From Carallia brachiata (lineage: Eukaryota; Streptophyta; Magnoliopsida; Malpighiales; Rhizophoraceae): a stretch of 64,000 bases of DNA. The notes under the pieces were generated by a model. It did not search any database, had not been told where the DNA came from, and was given only the letters and a program-made list of their open reading frames with translations. The stretch covers positions 4,206,280-4,270,279 of the forward strand of contig JADCRB010000006.1 in the NCBI GenBank assembly GCA_021464245.1. Reading direction: 5' to 3'. Shown here one piece after another: positions 37,704 to 63,662 of this stretch; the stretch's first letter is position 1; each line of letters starts with the position of its first letter. The position numbers were made by a program, and so were the translations under genes.

Positions 37704-38091
37704 ATGTGGGTCCCACCAATTTAAAAAAGGAGAGAACCGATTGTTTTGTTTTAAAAAACTGGAGAGACATATTAGAGGAAATTTGGGATTAGGGTTTATT
37801 TCATTTGAAATTTGAAATTGAAAACAAAAGGAAAAAAAAAAGAAGGAATGGGAAAGGTCTGTCGACTAGAAAGGAAGAGGGAAAGCCGAACCCTATTTCA
37901 TTGCAAGTGCAAATGTCATATTTGCAGTAAGTTCATAGCAGAGGAGGGACAGAAAAGTGGAAATGGGCGACGGGAAGGTAGGAGTTGGTGGTGGGAAGCG
38001 GATGTTATGACTAAGAGCTTGGACAATCGAATAAGCAACGAAGGTTATTTGAGCATAATCCGGCGTTATTTCAAGGTGGACGACAACATAT

Positions 38092-39140
38092 AACTTGTTA
38101 TTGAAGCGTAATTTGTCCTATGGTATCTTATTTATTTCCCATCTTTGGAGCACAAAAATCAGGGTATCTGCAGTGGAAAACTGTAAGGCAGGGAAGTGAT
38201 CGACTGAAAGGTAGTGGGCCTTGTGAAGGTAATAATTTAATTTTAGAGCAAGGTTTGGATGAATTTGTTTTTATTTCTTTTGACTGAAATGGTTTTGTAT
38301 GAGGTTGGTTCAATGTGATTAGGCATAAACAGAACTAAATTATGAAGAGATATTTTTAGTTTGGGATTAAGAGAAAGCTTAAATATTTAGGAGGCTAGGA
38401 GTAAGAATAGCATATGCAAATTTTAGCTAACAATAGATAACCTGTTATTGAAGCTTAATCTGTCCTATGGTATGTTATATGTGTAGGAACCCATATTTGG
38501 AGCACACAAATAAGGGAATCTGCAGTGGAAAACCTTAAGGCAGGGGAGTGATCGACTGAAAAGCAGTGGGCCTTGTGAAGGTAATAATTTAATTTTAGAG
38601 CAACGTTTGGATGAATTGTTGTTTATTTCTTTTGACTGAAATGGATTTGTATGATGTAGGTTCAATGTGATTAGGCATAAACAGAACTGAATTATGAAGA
38701 GGTATTTTTAGTTTGGGATTAAGAGAGTTTAAATATTTAGGAGGCTAGGAGTAAGAATAGCATATGGAAATTTTAGCTAACAACAGATAACTGTTATTGA
38801 AGCGTAATCTGTCCTATGGCATGTTATATGTTTAGGAACCCATATTTGGAGCACAAAAATCAGGGAATATGCAGTAGAAAACTGTAAGGCCGGGGAGCGA
38901 TCAACTGAAAGGCAGTGGGCCTTGTCAAGGTAATAATTTAATTTTAGAGCAAGGTTTGGATGAATTTGTTTTAATTATTTTGACTGATATGGTTTTGTAT
39001 GAGGTTGGTTCAATGTGATTAGGCATAAAGAGAACTGAAATTTGAAGAGATATTTTTAAGTTGGGATTAAGAGCAAGTTTAAATATTTAGGAGGCTAGGA
39101 GTACTAATAGCATATGGATATTTTAGCTACAATGGCTGAT
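38092..39140 (+). repeat. Triplicated unit of about 350 bp in the Ulp1 gene leader
   Basis: Three tandem copies start near 38092, 38445 and 38790. Each contains TGTTATTGAAGC, TGTCCTATGG, TTTGGAGCACA, GGGCCTTGTGAAGG (GTCAAGG in copy 3) and TTTAGGAGGCTAGGAGTA. Each has a short open stretch (about 30 codons, FGAQKSG...GSGPCE type) ending at a GGTAATAA donor-like site, with stops in copies 2 and 3. Confidence 0.85.
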
Positions 39141-51301: not shown

Positions 51302-54162
51302 TTAACATACCATTTGAGGATAGTGCAAGTAAGTGCCAGCAACACTCCGAGCTGTGTTAGGGGGAATGTTATTTGGAAGACCATAACAGCTAGTTTCAAC
51401 ATAGTTTCTTGATAGCACATGAGCTGAGGTGCCACCTTCATCTGCAACCTGTAACACCAATTCTGAACATTTGATTTAGCCAACTTATGGTAAGTTATGC
51501 AAAATTTTGAACCAATTGTCCAATAGCTTAACCAAGTCCGTTCTATATGCAATTCATGATCTTATAGTCTACACATTTACCTCTCCGCTCTGTATTGCAT
51601 TTACTTAACTATTTGCAGCCCATGACTGGAATGAAGGTGGCCTTTGCTGATCAAGCCTTCCTTCATTTGCCTACAAGGAACAACATAAGGCTTATAAATA
51701 TTGTGTTCATATAGCGACAACAAGGGATTACAAAGACTATTTGTAGATCGACATATTTACGCAAGGGTCTGAAAACGTTTCATACAAACTACAAAGCCCT
51801 TTTATGCTGGAGCCAGTACATTAAGTGAAGTTTGAAGATGAACATTGCTAAGTCTCGGCCTTTTACAAACAAGTTGAACATTGTTAAGCTTATGCCTTTT
51901 CGAAACAGCCATACGACTTAAACAAAATACTTACCTGTTGTAGTAACTCTGTGGCCGAAGATCCATTGATAGGGTGCATAGTCACTAGTCTCCTCAAAGG
52001 CGCCTCCCTCCTACTAATGCTTCTCCTACATGTCTGTGCCTCTATTGCAGACAACTTCCTCTTGCTCCTTGGCCTCCCCCTCCTTCGTACTAATGCTGGA
52101 TCTTTGTACCTTATTGTCAGGCCATGATCGCCTATCTCATAATGGTTAGCATCAGCAATGGTCTTCATCCCAACATGTTGTCCCTCTATAGTTGGACCAC
52201 CCTCTTTCCAGTTGTCTAGAAGATGATTCTGTTCATTTAGGACATTAAGCAAATGTTGAAACTTACTTTCATCTTGACGACCTTCTCAACTGAGGAATAA
52301 AATGCAACCTCCAACTCTTTAGTACGTCGAGAAGCAAGTGTTACATTACTCCATTGATCTTTTGTGCTATGACATCGGGGGATATCCTTTCTCCATCGCC
52401 TCGCCAAATATCTCTCAGGTATCACACTAACATCATTACTAACAAGTACCTTGAACACATGTCACATAGAATACCCTTGAACTCAAACAATTTACAAAAC
52501 AACTAAAAATCTGATTATCTTTATCAAAACTAACATTATACGTCACCCACTTATTCCTCTCACTGCCACTTTGTTTCATCTCTAAAACATCAAAAATTTT
52601 TTTGCTCCCCTCGTCGGCTACTAGTTTAAGGTCACAATACATGACATCAATGATCTCTTTTTGAACATGCTTGAAAATATTATTTGTGTAAACATTACGA
52701 AGTTGTACCTCAAATTTGAATCGAGTCACACAAGGAATTTGCAAATTTAATGTAAAAAAATCCTCTTGTCTTTCTTTCTCTACCTTATCAGCAACTGCAA
52801 GACTGTATTGATTAACGAACTGGCTAAGTGATGTCCTTGAGTGCACATAACCATCAAAAAAAGAATGCATGCTCTCACTTCTTTGAGTTGAGGACATGCC
52901 TGCCCAAAAAAAAGATTTTACATATACTGGAACCCACCACTGCCTAATTTCAAAGAGACTTGCTAGCCATTCATTTGCCTCTAAGTGGAACCTATAAATC
53001 ATGCTTCTCCATTGGACCTCAAATTCCTCGACAGATAGAGGATCATATACTACATCCATAAATGCCTCTTTCAAATATTTATACTCACAGTTTCCAGACA
53101 ACTTCATTGGAAGCTTACATAAGATGTGCCACAAGCACAATCTATGTCGAGTATTAGGAAAAACTATCTTTATGGCATCCCCAATAGCTATACATTGATC
53201 TGTGATTATTGAGTCAAGGTGCTTGCCATCCATACAACTCAACCATGTCTCGAAAAGCCACTTATATGTCTTCGCCTCTCATTATTAATTAAAGCACATC
53301 CTAAGAGAATGGACTGACCGTGTTGATTAACTCCAACAAATGTCCCAAAAGGCATATCATACTTGTTCACTAAGTAGGTCGTATCAAATGTGATAACATC
53401 ACAAAACTCTTAAGCTCCCATCTCCCATCCCAAAATACGTGTTTTAACCTACCTTTGTCAGGCTTAATCACATACAAAATCTCTACTTTCAGTCTGCAGC
53501 TTCCCAAACAATTGGTGGATTGCCTCAGCATCCCCTCCATTTAACTGCAACTTTCACACTTTATTCACATGGTTGATAAGATCAACACTTAGACAACCCA
53601 ATTCTTCGTGTCCTCCTGCTTGATACACAACTGCTTTTACATTTTCACATGGCCGTAAACCAGCCATGTCTTTAACTTCTAATTGTCGCTTATAATGGAG
53701 GTTAACTTGGCGGTGTTGCCTAATATATCGAGATAGAGAAGGACTCACCCCATGGTTGTGCTCAAGCTGGACCTTTGTTATGATCCACAATTCTTGTTTC
53801 TTTGCACAACAAACACGTGCTTTGCAACCAGTTCTAGCACTCGGACGTTGTGATAACAAATTCCTCCCCTTAGCCTTGTGTTCCCGATTTTTAGTACAAG
53901 TAATTGTCATCCACTTATACTCCCTAGTCACTGCATCCTTCTTTAACCCGCGCCTCGTAATTCCAAATCCTTTTGATTTAGCATACGCCTTGTAAAATTC
54001 ATACACTTCTTCAATCTCCTTAAATAGCATTCCAACTGTAGGTTTCTCCTCAGCAACCTGTTCCCTGACAACTCTACTTTCACCGGTTACTTTTTGCCTC
54101 CCCAAACCATCAATTCCAACTTTGCCTTCTCTGCTTCTGACCACATCAAAAACCTCAGCCAT
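51302..54162 (-). pseudogene. FAR1-type MULE transposase of the element, frame-damaged
   Basis: On the minus strand exon 1 (54162-51935) starts MAEVFDVV. It has a FAR1 DNA-binding domain (YEFYKAYAKSKGFGI, then CTKNREHKAKG, CKARV and LEHNHG), then MULE transposase blocks: [10 protein letters not shown] (first Asp at 53383-53385), TDQC (second Asp at 53198-53200), LCLWH, and STQRSES with the likely catalytic Glu. A SWIM finger follows near 52490-52440, then an AT-hook-like RRRGRPRSKRK. Two further exons (51670-51581 and 51448-51302) finish the chain, the last ending ...HYPQMVC with a TAA at 51302. Breaks: a TGA near 53560, frameshifts at about 53480-53250, single-base losses at both SWIM cysteine regions (about 52490 and 52455) and a stop in exon 2. 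It would bind the element ends and cut them, but this copy cannot make a full protein as read. Confidence 0.85.
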
Positions 54163-58440: not shown

Positions 58441-58532
58441 CGCTATTACAACATGCTTCATATCCCCATGCATAGCTTTAACTAGATAAGTCTAACTATA
58501 GATTGCATTATCTAGAGGCCCTAGGGTATTAC

Positions 58533-59377
58533 TGTAACGGGTAAATTTTGAGTCTAAAACAATTAAACTCGAAAATACAAAAATAAATTACAATAAAAAA
58601 ATTGTAAAATAAAAAGAAATTTATGTGGGGTCGATCTCTGAGTAGATCCTCCGATTAATGCTCCTGTTTTTGACTCCGTCAAGGGCTGCACGAGCTTGAT
58701 CTTGACAGAAATAATTTCCACAGCTTTTTCTTAAACTGGGTAGAATGAAACTGGATCTGATTTGGACGTTTTGACTACGGTTAAGAACCGCAGAGACCTG
58801 ATTTGAGCCGATCTGGCTTAATTTCACCGAGGGTCGAAGGGACTTGTTCTCGGATGAACTGCCTGGATTTTGCTGAGGGCCGTATGAGGCTTAATCCCAG
58901 CCGGATTTGCAGTATTTTGATATTTTGGATATTTTCTCTCTCAGATTCTGATTTAAGGCGACTGGAGAGTGTATACCCAAAATATTTTTGAAAATGTGTA
59001 TGATAAATATTCTAGGCCTTTACTTTAGAAGATCGCACTTAATGGCGTCTAAAGTGTAATGCCCAAAATATAAAACGTAAGAAGAGAATGTTTTCTCTTT
59101 GAGACAATTGCAAATTGGATTGCAATTCCAATTTGCCATTGTTGCTGTCCCGTCCTTTGTTTTTTTTTTTGTCTTTTTTCTCTCTTGGCAAATGGCCATT
59201 GGTTCTGCCTATTATAGGCTTTTTGGGTGGCACTGTGTGGTACTGTGCCACAACCTTTTGCTGACCCTTTTTTTTTTTTTTTTCTTCTCGCCGGTGCCTA
59301 ACTTTGAATTTTTTCTTTTTTAGAAGCTGACCTTCTAGATTGCCTCTCTATTTTTTTTTTTCTTTCATTTGTTTACA
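58533..59377 (-). repeat. 3' LTR of the WOX-carrying element
   Basis: In element orientation it starts TGTAAACAAATG after the polypurine tract and ends GGGTAAATT-type sequence closing in TTACA. The 240 bp from 58533 to 58774 match 63760-64000 closely, including TTTATGTGGGGTCGATCTCT and CGATTAATGCTCCTG. Confidence 0.75.
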
Positions 59378-60317: not shown

Positions 60318-60929
60318 CTAGCGGGGCCTAAGGTGCAACTCCAAGTCAAGCTCGACCTCGTCTGATGGGCCGATGATGTTGACGTCGCTTTCCGGCTGGT
60401 TGATGCTGCCGAAATATTCTGGAAAGAGAGGCAAAGTTTCGCCAGAATGACTCCTTTCTGCTAGAAAAATTCCTCCTAGACTTAAGTATCCATGAGGGAT
60501 GAACCCTTGGCTGACTCCGTAAGACCACCAGGACCAGCATGCATGCTTCCATGGGCTACGACTTTGATGAACATACCGTGGAGAGACGATTGCAGTGGTA
60601 GAACTCGGACCTGCTTCATTTGAGGGCGAAGTTGTACCGGTGGGATCTACCATCAGAACGGCAGACTGTTCTTTGGAAAAAGCAGCTCTCAGTCCTGGTT
60701 TCTTCCTGCTTCTCCGATTCTGGAACCAATAAAACACATTTTTTCCTTCGATTGCCCCGAGCGGGCGCAATCGTGAGACAAGTTGGTAAATTTGAGATGC
60801 ATTAGGAATAATACCTCCATTGTTGTGGAAGACTTCCTCCAAAATTTGCAATTGTGCCATGGTCGGTTGCCACCTTGTGTGGGGTGACCTTTCTTCTCCC
60901 TTGTCTTGAGGTTCTGCAACTGGTTCCAT
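60318..60929 (-). CDS. WUSCHEL-type homeobox (WOX) protein inside the LTR element
   Basis: Intact 203-residue frame. Residues about 16-80 form a WOX homeodomain: T-R-W-x-P-T start, NNGG loop, LRPLG, and IEGKNVFYWFQN (60-71), the diagnostic helix-3 block. It then reads RRSRKK where WUS and WOX1-5 have HKARER. Near the C-terminus ETLPLFP (164-170) is a WUS-box, and LDLELHL (194-200) is an EAR-type LxLxL repression motif. This combination marks the modern WUS clade. WUS-clade proteins are nuclear regulators of stem-cell and embryo fate and can recruit TOPLESS corepressors through the WUS-box or EAR. WUS genes normally have introns in the homeodomain; this copy has none, which fits capture of a spliced transcript. 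A TATA lies about 90 bp upstream (61018-61028). The frame is open while the neighbouring gag is broken, which suggests recent capture or retained function. Expression is unproven. Confidence 0.9.
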   Translation of the reverse strand: MEPVAEPQDKGEERSPHTRWQPTMAQLQILEEVFHNNGGIIPNASQIYQLVSRLRPLGAIEGKNVFYWFQNRRSRKKPGLRAAFSKEQSAVLMVDPTGTTSPSNEAGPSSTTAIVSPRYVHQSRSPWKHACWSWWSYGVSQGFIPHGYLSLGGIFLAERSHSGETLPLFPEYFGSINQPESDVNIIGPSDEVELDLELHLRPR

Positions 60930-61017: not shown

Positions 61018-61028
61018 CTTTTATATTT
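61018..61028 (-). promoter_or_regulatory. Candidate TATA box of the WOX gene
   Basis: AAATATAAAAG on the minus strand, about 90 bp upstream of the WOX ATG, giving a short leader if transcription starts about 30 bp downstream. Confidence 0.55.
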
Positions 61029-61039
61029 TTGGGCCGTTC

Positions 61040-61830
61040 ACAGTTTATACTCATGTGGGCCAGGAGTTGGATTGAATTTTGAATTTGGGTTCTGGACTTG
61101 TGTCTGGAACTTGGGATTTTGTGTTCGGGCTTTGACTTTCGCTTGGGCTTTCAGATCGGGACTTCCAATTTTTTTTTTTATTTTTTTTTTGCTATTGGGC
61201 CGTTCACAGTTTATACTTGTGCAGGCCAGGAGTCAGGTTTGTTGGATTGTTCGCCTTTTATACTCGTGCGAGGTAGGAGTGTTGAACTGTGGTGGACTGT
61301 GGTGGATTGATTATTGCCTTTTATACTCGTGCGAGGCGGGAGTGTTGAATTGTGGTGTCACCTTTTATACTCGTGCGAGGCAAGAGTGTTGAATTGCGGT
61401 GTCGCCTTTTATACTCGTGCGAGGCAGGAGTGCTGAATTGTGGTGTCGCCTTTTATACTCGTGCAAGGAAGGAGTGCTGAATCGTGATGGATTGATTATC
61501 GCCTTTTATACTCGTGCGAGGCAGGAGTGTTGAACTGTGATGTCGCCTTTTATACTCGTGCGAGGCAGGAGTGTTGAATTGTGGTGGATTGATTATCGCC
61601 TTTTATACTTGTGCGAGGCAGGAGTGTTGAACTGTGATGGATTGATTATCGCCTTTTATACTCGTGCGAGGCAGGAGTGCTGAATTGCGATGTCGCCTTT
61701 TATACTCGTGCGAGGCAGGAGTGTTGAATTGTGGTGGATTGATTTTCGCCTTTTATACTCGTGCGAGGCAGGAGTGCTGAACTGTGATGGATTGATTATC
61801 GCCTTTTATACTCGTGCGAGGCAGGAGTGC
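61040..61830 (-). repeat. Tandem repeat with a TATA-like sequence in every unit
   Basis: Twelve clear units start at about 61252, 61316, 61359, 61404, 61448, 61501, 61545, 61598, 61651, 61695, 61748 and 61801, with degenerate ones near 61048 and 61210. Units are mainly 44 or 53 bp, the longer with an added GGATTGATT. On the minus strand each reads GCCTCGCACGAGTATAAAAGGC or close to it, so the array presents GAGTATAAAAGG repeatedly toward the WOX gene. Confidence 0.9.
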
Positions 61831-62060
61831 TTTGTTGTGGATCTGTTCAGCTGAGAAGCTGCGGATCTGCTGAGCTGTTGAGCTGCTGAGCTCCTTGTTG
61901 AGCTGTTGAGTTGCTGAGCTGGACTTTGATTCAGGGTATAAGTTTTACCCTTGAATCTGGATTTGAACTTTGACTTAGAATTTGGATTTGGGCTTTGAGC
62001 CCAGGTTTAGCCGAATTTATGTTTGGCTTTGAATTTTGTTGGGTTTTGAGTCGGGATTTG
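61831..62060. repeat. Short GAGCTG and GATTTG word repeats
   Basis: GCTGAGCTGTTGAGCTGCTGAG repeats at about 61865-61922, followed by TTTGG/GATTTGGA repeats to 62090. No coding content. Confidence 0.6.
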
Positions 62061-62266: not shown

Positions 62267-63662
62267 TTAGAAGTTTACCGTTTGATCAAACCAGGTCGGG
62301 ATGCGTTGACAGCATGCAAGCGTAATTTCATGTTGACTTTCTTCTGACGGATTTGAAGGGACGGCAGTCTGGTTGACTGAGACTATGTCTCCCTGGTCCA
62401 AATTGATTTTATTTTGGTCTATGAGCTTCAAGATCAGCTCCTTTAAGACGAAGCACTTCTCGGTTGGATGGTTGATTGTGCGGTGATACCTGCAGAATTT
62501 CGGATCATTGACCTGATTCTTGTGATTGGGTTGCTTACATTCCGGGAGTTTGATCAACTTAGCTTCTAAAAGTTGATCGAGAATGTCTGGAACGTCGGAG
62601 TCGGGGAATGGATACTTCTTCTGTTCCAACTCTCGCAAGGTCGTCCTTCCCTTTTCTTGTTGTTTCGGTTGATTTGCCAGCGCTGGAGGACTCATTTTTG
62701 CTTTAGCTCCAACTTTTATCGGTGAAGCATCAATGGTCATCACTTCTTGCCCCCATGTTGGCCCAGTTGGATGGGAATCGTGCCTCCAGAGGTCTTGATG
62801 CTTATTTCCATGTCATGTGCGCGAGTTGCTAATTCCTCAAAAGTTCGAGGTTTGATGCCCTGTAGGATGTATAATAGCTCCCAGTGCATCCCTTGGATGC
62901 ACATTTCCACAGCAGAAGTCTCCGTAAGATGATCTTTGCAGTCTAGATTGAGAGCACGCCATCTGTTGATGTATTCGACAACGGGCTCTCCTTTCCTTTG
63001 TTTGGCACTAGTAAGCTCCATCATGCTCACCGTTCTCCGAGTGCTGAAAAATCTGTTGAGAAACTCTCGTTGTAGCTGTTCCCAACTGTCGATTGATTCT
63101 GGTTCAAGGTTTATGAACCACGTGAAAGCGTTCTCCCTGAGTGAACGAACAAACTGCTTCACCAAGAGATCTCCGTAAGTCCCTGCATTGTTGCAGGTTT
63201 CAACGAAGTGGGCGATGTGCTGTTTGGGATCGCCTCGTCCGTCGAATTGTTGAAATTTGGGCGGCTGGTAGCCCAGAGGCATGTTGAGACTTTCGATCCG
63301 TCTGGTGTACGGTTTGACGTACATCTGTGATCCTTGGAAAGATGTAGCTTGTTGCAGTCGGATCGTATTGGCTATCATTTCCTGCAATTGTTGAACAGAT
63401 AGCGAAGCTACAGAATTGAGGGTGGCAGCTGTGTAGAACTACCTGGTTGTTTTTCAGCATTGAAGACATCGGCTGTGTCGCTTCTGGAGTGAAACCAGGT
63501 GGATATTGTCGTCGCCTCGTGGGTCTGGAGATCAACTTGGATTGGAGCTTTTCCTTTGAGGGCAGCGATCTGTTGATCTTTTTCTTCCACAGTTTTGAGC
63601 AGTTGGAAAATTCTGCTTTCCAATTCTGCAATCCTGTCTTCAGTGTTCGTTGCGCTTGTCAT
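62267..63662 (-). pseudogene. Retrotransposon gag, two frameshifts
   Basis: Three overlapping frames form one gag. 63662-63408 starts MTSATNTEDRIAELES and has a coiled-coil heptad pattern (LLKTVEEKDQQIAALK). 63387-62740 contains the retrotrans_gag core (FDGRGDPKQHIAHFVE, LEPESIDSWEQLQREF, LTSAKQRKGEPVVEYI). 62743-62267 contains FCRYHRTINHPTEKC and a following Leu/Ile helix, as in the nucleocapsid end of plant gypsy (Tat-type) gag. Frame changes occur near 63420 and 62748. No protease motif follows. Gag would package the element RNA; this copy is broken. Confidence 0.85.

Follow-up and report, generated by a model that had tools for sequence, protein, structure and literature searches.

A WUSCHEL-type homeodomain gene in a Tat-branch LTR retrotransposon family of Carallia brachiata

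In a 64,000-nucleotide stretch of contig JADCRB010000006.1 of Carallia brachiata (assembly GCA_021464245.1, positions 4,206,280 to 4,270,279; hereafter the window), an intact, intronless reading frame for a WUSCHEL (WUS)-type member of the WOX homeodomain family lies inside a long terminal repeat (LTR) retrotransposon. The original prediction, made from the letters of the window alone, had described this frame as a gene carried inside an LTR element. This was confirmed, but the gene is not confined to one copy: it belongs to a whole element family with pol-bearing members, and non-autonomous derivatives without pol carry it as well. From the comparisons presented below, we consider it likely that WOX is a standing gene of the element, the product of which acts as a DNA-binding regulator for the family.

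The three WUS-clade signatures named in the prediction, GKNVFYWFQN, ETLPLFP, and LDLELHL, are all contained in the predicted protein. ETLPLFP aligns with the WUS box (TLxLFP) of WUS proteins, and LDLELHL aligns with LELSL. Pfam recognized a Homeodomain (E 4.2e-12), and the PDB sequence matches at E 0.001 were WUSCHEL and STENOFOLIA, with no others. AlphaFold2 modelled three helices with a predicted local distance difference test score of 95-96 over residues 21-70 that was low elsewhere (mean 62.5), and in a Foldseek search, structures of the WUS homeodomain on DNA ranked first. With 64 residues, the element homeodomain matches every one of the 34 WUS rows in length. Judged by sequence and model, the element protein is thus a WOX-family homeodomain protein with the WUS box of the WUS clade.

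The element that carries the frame occupies positions 58533-64608 and therefore runs beyond the window. Read along the minus strand, it consists of 5' LTR, gag, tandem array, WOX, a stretch of 0.9 kb, and 3' LTR, in this order (Table 1). Pol is absent from its expected place, as had been predicted: tblastn at E 1e-5 found no pieces of reverse transcriptase (RT), RNase H (RH), second RNase H (aRH), or integrase (INT) in this copy (locus L031). The predicted break in gag was also found, with the gene split into two frames. Over 848 columns, the LTRs share 95.4% identity; they have TG...CA ends and are flanked on both sides by the same 5-bp target-site duplication, GTAAT. By this similarity and the shared duplication, the element is a single insertion and not two LTRs from separate events. 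Assuming a plant rate of 1.3e-8 substitutions per site per year, the LTR divergence would date the insertion to near 1.8 million years ago.

That multiple element copies carry the gene became clear from searches of the host assembly (337.5 Mb). When the best 150 of 2292 candidate matches to the window protein were scored, they were 84-100% identical, 110 of them had no stop, and 23 tied at 410.1 bits. A degenerate pattern for the third homeodomain helix of this protein (type A) had at least 443 exact genome matches, versus 0 for the reversed control. A pol-bearing member, locus L032, contains a pol frame of 939 residues, followed by an intact WOX frame of 207 residues and the 3' LTR, all on the same strand. 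Its pol comprises RT, RT_RNaseH (209-310), RVT_3 (362-481), and an integrase zinc domain (from 579). A second RNase H thus sits between RH and integrase, which places the element in the Tat branch; the RH-aRH-INT order is that of Ogre and Retand according to the article that gives the second-RNase H rule (PMC6317226). A pol query against other sequences had a match of 74% over its whole length and of at most 77% over part of it. From an integrase search, in which the best 150 of 2810 candidates were scored, we used the 36 matches on contigs C1-C52 to look for WOX. In 30 of them, a WOX helix or frame followed downstream in the same orientation at a distance of at most 2 kb, recognized by the type A helix in 20 cases, by a second helix type (type B) in seven, and by a WOX frame from the protein search in three. 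As a side aspect, the pol pieces of another locus (L037) are up to 100% identical to those of L032 and yet frameshifted many times; as they match so closely in many frames, some of the indels may be assembly errors in repeats.

The type B helix was recognized in pol copies lacking the type A pattern, of which there were 13. In each of the three that we examined (L126-L128), a WOX frame was present, either complete or disrupted, with NVYFWFQNRRHRET as its helix 3. The type B pattern had 135 genome matches (control, 0), and the 35-mers were identical in all 100 matches listed, which suggests a young or homogenized subfamily. Over 229 residues, the integrases of the three type B copies and of L032 are 100% identical (rounded). 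Element homeodomains have RRSRKK or RRHRET where WUS has HKARER. The RRSRKK ending emphasized in the original prediction is therefore real but not the sole form, as it marks a single type in a family with at least two types of homeodomain. In a comparison of one type A with one type B element, mismatches amounted to 16 and 13% in two 100-bp homeodomain blocks, versus 3-7% in the blocks just upstream. Between the types, the synonymous distance fell from 0.32 in the homeodomain to 0.20 in the linker and 0.12 in the C-terminal part. From this gradient, an exchange of the homeodomain segment with a more remote lineage is most likely, as opposed to change through selection alone. The mismatch peaked, at 19%, in the next block at the start of the linker and thus beyond the homeodomain blocks, before falling to 0-10%; this place of the peak weighs slightly against a standing gene of the family.

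Codon comparisons show signs that the DNA-binding part was kept working while the family spread. Of the 150 scored frames, chosen by protein similarity, we analyzed 70 (L001-L030 and L040-L079), which represented 55 unique sequences; five of the 70 had an internal stop, four lacked a final stop, and two lacked an ATG, and all of these were retained with stops masked. Codon-based maximum likelihood gave a ratio of nonsynonymous to synonymous rates (omega) of 0.638, with a log-likelihood (lnL) of -4116.16 compared to -4128.88 at omega 1 and the same kappa, a doubled gain of 25. Omega was 0.375 in the homeodomain (lnL -924.11 versus -938.75 at omega 1), 0.567 in the C-terminal part (-921.87 versus -926.68), and 0.761, close to neutral, in the linker (-1718.47 versus -1720.41). 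LxLxL was retained in 54 and WFQN in 53 of the 55 unique frames. A split by frequency was informative: nonsynonymous to synonymous (N:S) counts in the homeodomain were 34:11 for private variants and 5:11 for variants shared by at least three copies (Fisher p 0.0025), whereas outside the homeodomain they were 85:35 and 45:18 (p 1.0). Shared variants differed between inside and outside with p 0.007. Two-copy variants (2:6 inside, 21:15 outside) and codons with multiple changes were excluded from these frequency tests.

As the first sample had been picked by protein similarity, which can lower omega, we used a second set ascertained by the 3' flank, consisting of all 40 copies that were scored among 1331 candidates. 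The frame was present from its start in 39 of them, and indels were mostly private. Eight rows were less than 91% identical to the window frame, and at least three of these (L101, L103, and L121) were of type B by position. In the rows above 91%, homeodomain N:S counts were 22:4 among private variants, 2:2 among those in two copies, and 1:5 among shared ones, the same direction as before, although weaker. With both sets pooled, private variants were 42:8 and shared variants 9:13 (p 0.0005). Such a pattern would arise if individual copies were free to decay and descendants came only from those whose homeodomain still works.

Several observations weigh against a gene that works for the element, and some of them would suit a frame that was captured once and then carried along without function, its intact copies being merely young. 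In the flank-ascertained set, 25 copies were frameshifted, six had in-frame stops, one was partial, and only eight were intact, so that 32 of 40 were not. Some of the indels in these copies may be assembly errors, as noted for L037. The homeodomain omega was weaker there, 0.572 (20 unique rows, lnL -613.97 versus -616.37), and after removal of the rows below 91%, it was 0.640 (17 unique rows, a value taken without a comparison to omega 1); the linker, close to neutral in the first set, had 0.771 here (12 unique rows). When all variants of the first set were pooled, there was no difference between the homeodomain (41:28) and the remainder (151:68, p 0.15), meaning that the signal is carried by the frequency split. 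TLPLFP was retained in only 38 of the 55 unique frames, and six of the 36 pol copies had no exact WOX match and may hold changed or lost frames. The 23 tied rows among the best 150 of 2292 candidates would fit a recent burst. Finally, TAAT/TGAA motifs were not enriched in the 5' LTR of the window copy relative to 300 shuffles, and on this ground we rejected autoregulation through WUS sites in the LTR.

The window copy itself also weighs on this side. A twin locus on contig C99 (L033) has the same flanks and target-site duplication and is 98.9% identical over 8.55 kb; it is an allele or duplicate of the window insertion and contains the same two gag frames. Between the twins, the WOX frame shows 14 nonsynonymous and 3 synonymous changes, compared to a neutral expectation of about 2.3 to 1 (binomial p 0.30), and the window copy looks to be drifting. 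The intactness of its frame alone consequently proves little. The original prediction had contrasted an intact WOX with a broken gag; the frame is indeed intact, but this contrast is weak evidence in light of the drift and of the eight intact frames among the 40 flank copies. In the alignment of the twins, we also noted that mismatches are absent from the first 3.8 kb and then occur in clusters that are densest in the WOX frame, which suggests allele switching or gene conversion.

Against carriage without function, the frame and its motifs have persisted despite few synonymous matches to host WUS (see below), shared amino acid changes are depleted in the homeodomain, and intact frames of both homeodomain types exist (among the eight intact flank copies are L103 and L121, of type B by position, and L122, all three below 91% identity). 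Taking both sides together, we regard a frame without function as unlikely and prefer a standing gene of the family. Since selection acts on the copies that transpose, the decay of single copies would be of little importance.

With respect to origin, the original prediction had raised the question of an intron-bearing parent-type gene in the host. The host carries L080 and L081 as WUS genes, and both matched WUS in three distinct blocks; a further seven WOX homeodomains are present. The separate blocks imply that the host WUS genes have introns, whereas the corresponding parts are continuous in the element frame, as would fit if the captured transcript had been spliced. The donor may have been an ancestor of this host or another plant. 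Within a set compiled for another query, the host WUS genes were closest, at about 50%, to rows from Malvaceae, legumes, and other rosids. The homeodomains of the element and of host WUS are about 50% identical; 14 of 33 conserved codons agree, as do 3 of 9 comparable fourfold sites. With this identity and near saturation at the few comparable synonymous sites, the capture of a WUS-type cDNA was probably old. The element branch in a homeodomain tree had a length of 3.54, also in agreement with the long separate evolution that had been proposed. In a protein database search, the best match covered one third of the query at 51%, so that there was no close relative of the element protein among the 120 matches listed of 430. 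A short, odd WUSCHEL-like protein of Ipomoea triloba (P0114, 145 aa), with FQNQRGREKQ for FQNHKARERQ and a long tree branch, might be a similar case.

The source could also have been another WOX clade, such as the WOX5 or WOX2 type. In the approximately unbiased (AU) test, neither grouping with the seven other host WOX (p 0.54) nor grouping with host WUS (p 0.41) was rejected. We nevertheless consider another source very unlikely, because the 64-residue length of the element homeodomain is that of WUS, whereas the other host WOX have 63 residues in six of seven cases and 62 in one (its first residue not taken). In addition, many of the 120 listed database matches are named WUSCHEL or WUSCHEL-like, while the others are unnamed or have general names, with no other WOX number in the names as displayed.

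A TATAAAA-type motif was found in 27 of 30 loci inspected, many of these loci being near-identical, and in the window copy, TATAAAAG precedes the WOX ATG by 96 nt. Together with the upstream array, in which TATAAAAGG occurs 11 times, this is suggestive, no more, of an internal promoter. Motif enrichment in the array stems from one repeated unit and was therefore not counted as evidence. A TATA-like motif upstream of intact frames would also suit a plant that had co-opted one or more frames as an extra WOX regulator of its own. With hundreds of similar copies, and with drift at the window locus (the one locus examined), we consider service to the host extremely unlikely. That an ordinary host WOX gene lies by chance between unrelated LTRs is refuted by the single target-site duplication around the LTR pair and by a frame that is a repeat with hundreds of copies (443 helix matches), located at the same place in the element where checked.

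The standing element gene that we favor can be pictured as follows. Long ago, a Tat-branch Ty3/gypsy element with the order RT-RH-aRH-INT would have acquired the spliced transcript of a WUS-type gene and retained it as a third gene, in sense orientation between integrase and the 3' LTR. The protein could be made from the genomic transcript or from an internal promoter at the TATA motif. WUS recruits TOPLESS-type co-repressors via its WUS box and EAR motif, and the element protein may do the same while binding DNA with its homeodomain. It would serve the family in trans, most likely by adjusting either host meristem genes or the transcription of the element, presumably in cells that contribute to the germ line, in which the expression of transposable elements can rise. 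Such a transient rise is described for Arabidopsis shoot stem cells, and descendants of the subepidermal ones among these form the germ cells (PMC7560203); this combination could make a WUS-like gene profitable to an element. A bolder version, which we offer tentatively and find possible rather than probable, is that a stem-cell regulator was turned into a replication gene: a WUS-like repressor with exchangeable DNA-binding heads, seen as two homeodomain types beside a nearly identical integrase, would shift meristem or germ-line-competent cells to a state that favors transcription and inheritance of the family.

Among known systems, Tat-branch Ty3/gypsy elements such as Ogre and Retand are similar in their RT-RH-aRH-INT order, in an extra open reading frame (ORF) between pol and the 3' LTR, and in a tandem array nearby, as found in the window copy. 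According to a survey of Retand in 617 assemblies, sense ORFs between pol and the 3' LTR encode no known domain, and an antisense TRP28 ORF is present in 97% of clusters (PMC11963269). The ORF of the present family is a sense ORF that encodes a homeodomain protein. The one antisense frame scanned between pol and the 3' LTR (L032:3460-3846) had no Pfam match. An orchid Gypsy family with an AlkB N6-methyladenosine demethylase is alike in having a host-type gene fixed in a Gypsy family, but AlkB is an RNA enzyme, whereas WUS-type proteins are developmental transcription factors. The orchid family is from a screen in which unusual domains of LTR elements were sought in 121 angiosperm genomes (PMC9289625). 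B3, PMD, G-patch, AlkB, and other domains are listed there, no homeodomain is named among them, and "homeo" at the start of a word occurs 0 times in the main text. Host regulatory genes were also taken up by retrotransposons in the case of the DNA methyltransferases of dinoflagellates and charophytes, with hundreds in Symbiodinium according to a section title (PMC5890265); these are methyltransferases, and in other hosts. With WUSCHEL itself, the element protein shares the homeodomain fold and its length, the WUS box, and an EAR-type motif, whereas it differs in homeodomain identity, in the helix end, in the absence of introns, and in being borne by an LTR element. In the literature searched, with subscription literature mostly outside coverage, we found no report of a WOX-bearing retrotransposon.

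Table 1. Features of the WOX-bearing element in the window.
Feature	Position	Strand	Basis or remark
WUS-type WOX reading frame	60318..60929	minus	203 aa, ATG to stop, intronless
Homeodomain, residues 18-77; recognition helix end WFQNRRSRKK	60699..60878	minus	Pfam, PDB sequence search, fold model
WUS box ETLPLFP, residues 164-170	60420..60440	minus	translation; alignment with WUS box of WUS proteins
LDLELHL, EAR-type motif, residues 194-200	60330..60350	minus	translation; alignment
TATAAAAG, candidate internal core promoter 5' of WOX ATG	61018..61025	minus	
Tandem array, 44/53-bp units	61261..61895	minus	11 copies of TATAAAAGG in WOX sense
gag frame (Retrotrans_gag), 215 aa	62740..63387	minus	frame list, Pfam
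gag continuation in other frame, 158 aa; gag broken	62267..62743	minus	frame list, Pfam
3' LTR	58533..59377	minus	LTR pair alignment
5' LTR	63760..64608	minus	64000 is the window end; remainder from contig, locus L031
Target-site duplication ATTAC (GTAAT on minus)	58528..58532		second copy beyond window

Elsewhere in the window, a FAR1/MULE-type gene or remnant is spread over several frames at 51890-54162 on the minus strand (Pfam FAR1 and MULE), a FAR1 query having a single match, at 41%, under length limits, and a 352-bp unit is repeated three times in tandem at 38083-39129, with 89% matches. Rfam had no match anywhere in the 64 kb.

Extra genes are known from plant LTR elements, most of them without a readable function. 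Here, the extra gene encodes a homeodomain protein of a type with a known developmental role, occurs in hundreds of copies, and has two DNA-binding types, which makes the role of extra ORFs directly testable. WOX gene counts in annotated genomes possibly include element copies, and a genome full of WUS-like genes may affect the meristems of its host.
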